Assembly (NCBI GenBank): GCA_937944095.1
Contig: CALEAC010000116.1
Span: forward strand, 1 to 35,054
Length of the DNA stretch: 35,054 bases
Direction: 5' to 3'
Origin: an uncultured Saprospiraceae bacterium
GTDB lineage: Bacteria; Bacteroidota; Bacteroidia; Chitinophagales; Saprospiraceae
Positions 32,273-34,318 of the stretch are shown piece by piece (position 1 is the stretch's first letter; every line of letters begins with the position of its first letter). The notes under the pieces were generated by a model, which ran no database searches, was not told where the DNA came from, and saw only the letters and a program-made list of their open reading frames with translations. The translations under genes and the position numbers were made by a program.

Positions 32273-32324
32273 CGTCGATTATTCTCAATAAATAATAATT
32301 TTCAAGGATTTATTTTGACCAAAT

Positions 32325-32355
32325 TTTGGTACTCAGTCAAATAGTTGTATATTTA
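32325..32355 (+). promoter_or_regulatory. Candidate promoter for a ncRNA
   Basis: TTTG (32325-32328), 19-nt spacer, TATATTTA (32348-32355). Confidence 0.5.
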
Positions 32356-32360
32356 TACTA

Positions 32361-32574
32361 ATCAAACAATTATGTATGGTGTCACCATGCCGGATTCCGC
32401 AGGTCAGCGACCTGCACCCCAAAAGACATGTGGAATAATTCCTGTTTGGCCAGGTGTACGATTAATATCGATTACACAAAAAGTATAACAGACAAACAGG
32501 TAGTAATAGACCCAGATCTTTATTCCTGTTCTTAAAAAGAATCACGCCGAACTAGCTCCTAGTTCGGTTTTTTT
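32361..32574 (+). ncRNA. Candidate structured ncRNA, about 210 nt, next to the Abi gene
   Basis: Promoter-like element upstream, nested complementary arms (AAGACA/TGT-T-CTT, GGAATAA/TTATTCC, CCTGTTTG/CAAACAGG, GTGTA-CGAT/ATCG-TACAC), canonical terminator, no ORF. Confidence 0.5.
32547..32574 (+). terminator. Strong rho-independent terminator
   Basis: CCGAACTAG-CTC-CTAGTTCGG followed by TTTTTTT. Confidence 0.9.
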
Positions 32575-32725
32575 ATGGAAGAAAACTGTGTTCGAAGATT
32601 GCAATTATTGGAACGCTGTGTGTATTCAAAAAATAATTTCAATGCTATTCAATTTCTTGCAGAGTTGTCTTTATGATAATATTACAAATATTACGTGGTA
32701 ATATTTTGCACTCTGTAACAATGAG

Positions 32726-33667
32726 TCAATTTATAAACTTTTTCCAAAGCGCTTGTCCTTTCCAATTTTCAGGAAATCCCATATGATTTAGATCCACAAC
32801 CTCATATTTACTGAATAGGTCCATCAATTGATAACCATATTTACTGCATGGGTTCACAGATTCAAGACAATATATTATTGCACAGATGACGGCATAGACT
32901 TTAAGTTCTTTGTCCTTAGTATCTTTGTTTTTTTCTTCATTTTCCCATCTATCTATCCATGGTTTCTTTGGAGATTTGATCCAGGCTGGACTTATTGTTA
33001 GTTTCCTATTCCATAACCTACTATGGTGTGCACATATGTTCCTAACATATACAAAGGTTTCTACCCAAGAAATCAATACACTGTGATGGAGGCCAAAACT
33101 TTTGGCAATCGGTATTAGGTCTTTAAAGTCAGCTGTATTTTTTAAGATGCCTAGTAAGGAATTGAAAGTTAAGAGCTCAAAGGATTTCCATGAAGGAGGC
33201 ATAAACTGATTATAGTTTTTCTTGTATCTGACTATGAAATCTTGTTTAGTCTCATCTGAAGTGGTTGCTATTTTATTTAGCAGCTTAAGGTAGCCTTGAT
33301 AATTCTTAAACGCAGATGAATCCTCATACCAGAAACCTGAATTGTATTTAATCGAGAAATGATAAATTATCTGTGTTCTTATAGCGATTTCAATTTGCTC
33401 GATAGCCTGAAAAGTAATAGTACGGAAGTCGCTATCAAACTGATACAACTTAAACGCAGTATCAAAGGTGGCGCCGTCTTTGAAAATTTCGTCTTTCTTG
33501 GGCTCTGCCAATAAAGGGAACCAATAATTACTGAGACGGTTGTAACTTATGTAGGTTAGGATTTTTTCAGCTCTTTCCTCATTTAAAATGGAAAGATTTC
33601 TTTCTTTGAGCAGAGCCACTTGATTTCTGAAAGTCTTTGGTGTCTTTGTGTATTCTGTCTTGGCCAT
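32726..33667 (-). CDS. Abi family protein (Abi_2/AbiD-AbiF-like HEPN RNase)
   Basis: KTFRNQVALLKERNLSI...YISYNRLSNYWFPL...AIEQIEIAIRTQIIYHFS...FVYVRNICAHHSRLWNRKL with Rx4H HEPN motif RNICAH. ORF track starts at 33739, but MAKTEYTK at 33667 lies downstream of the predicted promoter. Confidence 0.9.
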   Translation of the reverse strand: MAKTEYTKTPKTFRNQVALLKERNLSILNEERAEKILTYISYNRLSNYWFPLLAEPKKDEIFKDGATFDTAFKLYQFDSDFRTITFQAIEQIEIAIRTQIIYHFSIKYNSGFWYEDSSAFKNYQGYLKLLNKIATTSDETKQDFIVRYKKNYNQFMPPSWKSFELLTFNSLLGILKNTADFKDLIPIAKSFGLHHSVLISWVETFVYVRNICAHHSRLWNRKLTISPAWIKSPKKPWIDRWENEEKNKDTKDKELKVYAVICAIIYCLESVNPCSKYGYQLMDLFSKYEVVDLNHMGFPENWKGQALWKKFIN

Positions 33668-33736
33668 GAGAGGTATAGATACAGAAAACCCCCAAAAAAT
33701 GCACATCGTAGAGAGGTCCGGGGGGTATTGATAACA

Positions 33737-33744
33737 CAAATATA
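33737..33744 (-). promoter_or_regulatory. -7 element of the Abi gene promoter
   Basis: Minus strand TATATTTG (exact TAnnTTTG); no clear -33 match. Confidence 0.45.
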
Positions 33745-33780
33745 CGCAATGAAGCTATACTATGTATTACTTTAATTTAC

Positions 33781-33938
33781 AATGAAAACTGTGTATCCTC
33801 AATCATACCAGTAGCTTAAAACTGACAAACGAAATTTGATTGATTTTCTAATTCTGATGGAAAAATGAACCATTAACCCTTAAAACACAAAGTTTTCATT
33901 GACATTCTGAACTACTGGTAAGGTAGCGGATACACAGT
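33781..33938. repeat. Multi-arm inverted-repeat region upstream of the Abi gene
   Basis: ACTGTGTATCC (33788-33798)/GGATACACAGT (33928-33938); TACCAGTAG (33806-33814)/CTACTGGTA (33912-33920); AATGAAAACT (33781-33790)/AGTTTTCATT (33891-33900). Confidence 0.75.
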
Positions 33939-34269
33939 AATAGAATAATAAGGAAATTACCACAGTCATAATAGACCCTAACGGTGGTCTGCTTTTTAAC
34001 AGATTCTTTTACTACGGGCTCCTTTACAAGAGGCTTAGCTACAAGAGCTAGTTGTTCTGCTTCTGCTACTGTGGCAAAGGATGCTGTTTGTCTATTAACT
34101 ATTGCTACCTCTTCTTTGATACTGAGGCTATTATTTCTTTACAAAAAAAGGATGCACATAATGCACCCCAAAATGACTAACACCCTTGATCTTTCGGAAA
34201 GATCCGTAAGTAGAATTTCCAGCATTGGAAAAATGGGGGTGTTGGTAAGGAGGGGTAAGCTTATAACTG

Positions 34270-34308
34270 AAAAAAGCTGGTATCCTTTTGTCTAGATACC
34301 AGCTTTTT
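34270..34308. terminator. Bidirectional terminator hairpin
   Basis: AAAAAGCTGGTATC/GATACCAGCTTTTT with 10-nt loop. Confidence 0.85.
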
Positions 34309-34318
34309 GATTTTTAAT

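Follow-up and report, generated by a model that had tools for sequence, protein, structure and literature searches.

AbiF and its RNA partner, AbiFr, have been proposed as the ancestor of CRISPR-Cas13. In the system from a Prevotellaceae bacterium (PbAbiF/AbiFr; Zilberzwige-Tal et al., Cell 2025, cited here through PMC12737573 and PMC12373285), one AbiFr is bound per PbAbiF monomer and the RNA inhibits cleavage of single-stranded RNA (PMC12737573); R210 and H215 of PbAbiF have a catalytic role (PMC12373285). AbiF_Cd, encoded in phi027 of Clostridioides difficile, is toxic while its R/H mutant is harmless, and direct binding of the RNA RCd22 neutralizes it, whether RCd22 acts in cis or in trans (PMC12373285). 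The same paper calls an anti-phage effect of AbiF_Cd challenging to demonstrate.

Here we describe a locus in a window of 35,054 nucleotides (the whole stretch of DNA analyzed; contig C116) from the genome of an uncultured Saprospiraceae bacterium, which is 83% complete at 2.78 Mb. The observations comprise the protein family, its catalytic residues and fold, the conservation and covariation of an RNA, a promoter box with its spacing, and the order of the genes; we read the locus, with a probability of about 0.8, as a type III-like AbiF/AbiFr toxin–antitoxin system of a kind already known from C. difficile and Prevotellaceae. We call it type III-like because it has a single hairpin and no tandem repeat array.

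With PbAbiF the window protein shares homology over its whole length, the catalytic R/H pair, an associated noncoding RNA, and a broad bacterial group; identity is ∼32%, in a comparison that covers the protein chains alone, the window protein being known from sequence. As in AbiF_Cd/RCd22, an abiF-type RNA lies between promoter and gene and is co-directional with them, a terminator precedes the ORF, and the protein carries a HEPN RN..AH motif. RCd22 contains a pair of abiF motifs, and its terminator is a hairpin of its own (98 to 132 nt, with 168 nt from transcription start to ATG), whereas in the window one hairpin would also serve as the terminator and the transcript would have a leader of about 65 nt. 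AbiF_Cd is located in a prophage lysis module; the window abiF is found among housekeeping genes. The arrangement also recalls ToxIN-type type III systems, with an RNA antitoxin directly before an RNase toxin, a terminator between the two, and, presumably, neutralization of the protein by the RNA; the putative toxin of the window is, however, a HEPN protein unrelated to ToxN, and a single hairpin takes the place of an array of processed repeats.

The Window Encodes a Predicted AbiF-Type HEPN RNase

The ORF listing contains a minus-strand ORF at 32726–33739 with a TTG start, which the original prediction had taken for an Abi_2-type HEPN RNase gene. Profile searches bear this out: the Abi_2 profile PF07751 scores 164.1 bits (E = 5.5e-48) against a curated cut-off of 25.6, and the PADLOC AbiD profile matches with E = 5.7e-72. 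The gene and its motif are as follows.

32726–33667, minus strand: abiF/abi_2 gene, 313 amino acids, predicted ATG start at 33667, beginning MAKTEYTKTPKTF (from Pfam, the match to 8VZ6, and the starts of relatives)
33011–33043, minus strand: HEPN motif RNICAHHSRLW, residues 209 through 219 (from the PbAbiF alignment, with the literature for catalysis)

The predicted HEPN motif is present, and its first part, RNICAH (residues 209 through 214), satisfies the catalytic pattern R(N/D/H)xxxH. R209 and H214 align with the catalytic R210 and H215 of PbAbiF, and the HEPN R/H pair is invariant in alignment A8. PbAbiF with its noncoding RNA (Protein Data Bank: 8VZ6) is the only significant solved relative, both by sequence (E = 1e-51) and by fold; a Foldseek search with an AlphaFold2 prediction, whose confidence is moderate (pLDDT 73), returned 8VZ6 as its sole significant match (E = 6e-15, TM 0.72 to 0.76). 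Identity is 57 to 71% to the four nearest homologs, from three uncultured Saprospiraceae and Poritiphilus flavus (loci L011 through L014), and 32 to 37% to more distant ones; among named organisms, the gene has its closest relatives in uncultured Saprospiraceae. Judged by profile, alignment, and predicted fold, the ORF does encode an Abi_2/AbiF HEPN RNase, and by analogy it would be an AbiF-type enzyme, putatively toxic and RNA-cutting. A pattern scan found no viral homologs of the window protein.

Among the window ORFs scanned against PADLOC, the abi ORF is the sole strong defense match, as had been claimed; the remaining matches are a deaminase/dCTPase overlap and weak ZorA-like ones. The flanking stretches 32273–32725 and 33740–34318 are likewise free of confident genes. 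In an empty-site comparison the BaxI gene was not adjacent to the DUF6909 gene in 19 relatives, so that no empty insertion site is definable.

The true start of the gene is predicted to be ATG 33667, not the TTG near 33739. The genes of L011 through L014 begin at about the same place as this ATG, and where the ORF is read from TTG, its first ∼70 bp (24 codons) overlap an element kept in the DNA upstream of abi in these four loci. In L011 and L012 the homolog of the N-terminal extension lies in a different frame from the abi gene, for which reason the extension was rejected as coding; the RNA structure is kept in both.

A Conserved Hairpin Lies between a Promoter Box and the Gene

Directly 5′ of abi_2 and on the same strand is a hairpin made up of an outer stem, a short inner stem, a conserved loop, a 3′ bulge, and a terminal U-tract, with its 3′ end 17 nt before ATG 33667.

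33685–33730, minus strand: abiF-type RNA hairpin, putative AbiFr antitoxin (from model R3, covariation, and conservation)
33726–33720 with 33694–33688, minus strand: outer stem, with one C·U mismatch
33717–33700, minus strand: conserved core ACCUCUCUACGAUGUGCA within the hairpin
33688–33685, minus strand: U-tract of the hairpin (from sequence)
33737–33744, minus strand: Bacteroidota −7 promoter box TATATTTG (TAnnTTTG; from its spacing across loci)

L011 through L014 and L027 keep the hairpin, likewise immediately 5′ of abi_2. A covariance model built from five close sequences (R1) recovered it, again upstream of Abi_2, from six more loci, one of which, from a Burkholderiaceae genome, exceeds the Rfam abiF gathering score, and one of which (L021), with a plainer hairpin, is doubtful. 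In the alignment derived from R1, 93.8% of cells are paired, double changes occur in 8 of 10 pairs, and covariation is 0.49, compared with 0.20 after shuffling and 0.03 to 0.10 after sliding; these counts lean toward structure because the alignment was fitted to it, and the alignment takes in one weak, chance-level row. The loop and the 3′ bulge (CCUCU...ACGAUG..CA) are the most conserved parts, and the letters of the terminator stem vary freely with compensation.

For a second covariance model, R3, the training set excluded the window and its group and included the RF03085 members L018, L082, L088, and L092. Run over the 35-kb window with filters off, R3 gave one significant match, at the hairpin site (24.4 bits, E = 2.2e-5; next-best match 10.7 bits), and no tandem array of RNA repeats is present, the single hairpin being the one significant R3 match in the window. 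R3 also matches the hairpin in L011 through L014 and L027, and E values in the relatives of the window range from 6e-5 to 3e-9. Because this independent model finds the hairpin as its sole significant match, we assign it as a predicted abiF-type RNA, though it is missed by RF03085. The original prediction had named the abiF motif as a candidate partner and proposed a search with the Rfam abiF model (RF03085); that search found nothing in the region at E ≤ 5 or in the genome at E ≤ 10, and the hairpin falls below the gathering threshold. The window RNA is instead linked to RF03085 by structure, core, and intermediates (R3, E = 2.2e-5), and, as the Rfam model misses it, a hairpin of this subtype would go unannotated. 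The two have in common an outer stem of 6 to 7 bp, an inner stem of 3 bp, the CCUCU...ACGAUG loop, a 3′ bulge, and a U-tract; the window RNA differs in its inner stem (GGAC/GUGC instead of AGC/GCU) and in one extra bulge base.

In 12 of 15 loci the promoter box precedes the RNA start by 13 to 15 nt, as against a mean of 0.3 and a maximum of 4 loci after shuffling; in the window it stands 14 nt before the hairpin. The order predicted from the consensus is promoter box, hairpin with U-tract, and gene. The idea of a protein–RNA module with an abiF-type RNA was therefore right in kind, with a covarying hairpin, a promoter at fixed spacing, and the R3 match, and wrong in place: the RNA lies within the supposed coding interval, not in the flanks of 450 to 580 bp where it had been expected.

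Proposed Mechanism and Alternative Readings

By analogy with the characterized relatives, from which we infer transcript ends, RNA binding, toxicity, neutralization, trigger, and anti-phage effect, the hairpin very probably acts as the antitoxin of AbiF. The Bacteroidota promoter would start a transcript at about 33731–33735. Most transcripts would stop at the hairpin's own U-tract, giving an RNA of ∼45 to 50 nt (AbiFr), and read-through would give the abiF mRNA; the C·U mismatch in the outer stem and the short U-tract mean that termination may be weak. AbiFr would bind the AbiF homodimer, probably with one RNA per monomer, and block the HEPN RNase site. On a collapse of transcription or of RNA stability, for example during phage takeover, AbiF would become free, cut RNA, and stop growth.

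The strong secondary-structure signals in the flanks, noted in the original prediction, are real folds; they are terminators and one unconserved inverted repeat, and were rejected as the structured-RNA partner.

32546–32568, no strand assigned: ordinary bidirectional intrinsic terminator between the DUF6909 gene and the abi gene
33788–33938, no strand assigned: imperfect inverted repeat with ∼34-nt arms, ∼150 nt, upstream of the module, single copy
34271–34308, no strand assigned: ordinary terminator hairpin beside the BaxI_1 gene

A partner RNA formed by the inverted repeat or by the 3′ hairpins has in its favor that the stretch 33735–33960 folds better than its shuffles (z = −4.2). The repeat, however, is absent upstream of the abi genes of relatives, has no second copy in the genome, and in 58 further genomes of the family has only short, weak counterparts, and the 3′ hairpins are terminators; the chance that the partner is to be sought here is close to negligible, and the inverted repeat is probably not part of the module. 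It is also highly improbable that there is no RNA element at all, with the region being either a plain terminator or the coding N terminus of a protein started at TTG, and Abi a stand-alone RNase under protein-level control. The frame is indeed open from 33739, and the single-sequence fold energy of the hairpin, taken alone, is unremarkable (z = −0.02), but L011 and L012 lose the frame yet keep the stem pairing, an independently built covariance model matches the site, and the promoter box keeps a constant spacing.

A leader that acts in cis only, as an attenuator or as a translational control of the abi mRNA, and that yields no separate antitoxin, has more to commend it: the stem and U-tract end 17 nt before the ATG, and a structured 5′ untranslated region controls AbiD1 translation in Lactococcus (PMC12373285). 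We nevertheless consider it unlikely, as conservation is strongest in the loop and 3′ bulge and not in the terminator stem, RCd22 acts in trans (PMC12373285), and the same core occurs in phages without any abi gene, which a purely cis-acting element would not explain.

abiF-Type and Second-Class RNAs in Bacterial Genomes

An R2 search of 396 genomes of the phylum gave eight matches of 25 bits or more, six of which are just upstream of an Abi_2 gene and two of which are not. Many other Abi_2 genes are preceded by a second hairpin class, which has the same architecture and a different loop (CACGCUUCCCGUMAGAWCAGCG). This class covaries, and the loci scanned gave no match to Rfam 15 at E up to 1. 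It is found upstream of Abi_2 in L065, L067, L069, L073, L077, L084 through L090, and L021 through L023.

The source genome has a second Abi_2 gene (L002, G000:C152, 1270–2145; motif RNICAHGG), which immediately follows a DNA methyltransferase-like ORF; an R3 search of this locus found no abiF-type RNA, so not every Abi_2 needs one. Elsewhere, a type I hsdR-like gene is preceded by both RNA classes in tandem (L043, G198:C23, minus strand 1501–1544 and just upstream), in a genome (G198) without an Abi_2 match. An orphan abiF-class RNA (L045, G252:C49, minus strand 1501–1545) is located in an apparent mobile element that also encodes a resolvase and a TniB-like ATPase, and its genome (G252) likewise gave no Abi_2 match.

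Solitary RNAs in Viral Contigs

A scan of IMG/VR with the canonical abiF core gave 88 stretches; the IMG/VR loci bearing abiF-class RNAs are L103 through L182. One alone of the retrieved viral abiF-class loci has an Abi_2 gene nearby, and among whole viral records Abi_2 is found in 1 of 88 (abiF class, 1 of 50; second class, 0 of 38), in a search that was made by pattern and over many contigs that are fragments. The 50 abiF-class records include the complete genomes of Acinetobacter phage Acj61 (L192) and Roseobacter phage CRP-143 (L191), in both of which the abiF RNA lies between annotated genes and scores above the Rfam gathering threshold. Second-class viral loci are L222 through L278; orphan copies of this class, too, occur in tRNA arrays, and named phages gave no match to it.

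Structure is conserved at these sites. At 68 nonredundant abiF-class sites, 45 have an outer stem of their own of 5 bp or more, compared with 16% when stem partners are swapped; at 30 nonredundant second-class sites, 26 have an outer stem of 6 bp or more (14% when mismatched). Overlap with ORFs is below expectation for both (8 of 68 sites vs. 45 expected; 1 of 30 vs. 20). A same-strand tRNA lies within 300 nt of 23 of the 68 abiF-class sites (random mean 8, maximum 14) and an opposite-strand tRNA within 300 nt of none; in the second class, 17 of 30 sites have tRNAs on the same strand only within that distance (random 3, maximum 7). Part of this strand bias is general co-orientation of phage genes, because the random control keeps strand. 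At the viral loci L158 and L167, two tandem abiF-class hairpins sit in an array with 23 tRNA genes, with a third match upstream.

The exact GGAC subtype of the window was not found in viral contigs, where only near subtypes occur (L097, L098, and L102). L097 and L098 score above the Rfam gathering threshold, L097 and L102 adjoin same-strand tRNAs, and the proteins of the L102 contig are phage-like; several loose 18-mer matches (e.g., L094 and L101) are probably due to chance. In Lactococcus phage sk1, for which a DNA region protecting phage 712 from AbiF has been cited (PMC12737573), neither R3 nor Rfam finds an abiF RNA.

The simplest reading of the viral orphans is that they are decoy antitoxins. 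We lean, by a modest degree of belief, toward the view that solitary AbiFr-type RNAs, in two classes and often within tRNA arrays, are widespread in phages and other mobile elements as decoys that would neutralize host AbiF during infection, in parallel to RNA anti-CRISPRs. The latter (Racr; PMC10651486) are also solitary RNAs of a host system in viral genomes that lack the protein partner; Racr mimic CRISPR repeats, whereas the viral orphans would mimic AbiFr. Racr candidates have been found for all CRISPR types except VI (PMC10651486). Alternatively, the orphans may be a processing element of tRNA arrays; that they are remnants of lost AbiF modules is unlikely because their structure is conserved in so many contigs. 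In the literature searched, which was without Weinberg 2017 and Zilberzwige-Tal 2025, the sole phage abiF RNA mentioned outside the AbiF system itself is an annotation in cyanophage S-CREM1, along with a review citing it, with no decoy reading.

Discussion

The locus adds to the AbiF/AbiFr kind a compact form, in which one hairpin of ∼45 nt is probably both antitoxin and terminator, from a lineage whose RNA Rfam misses. Of these findings, the orphan RNAs most deserve to be followed further. As viral elements conserved in structure, they make it testable whether phages beat AbiF by supplying its antitoxin.
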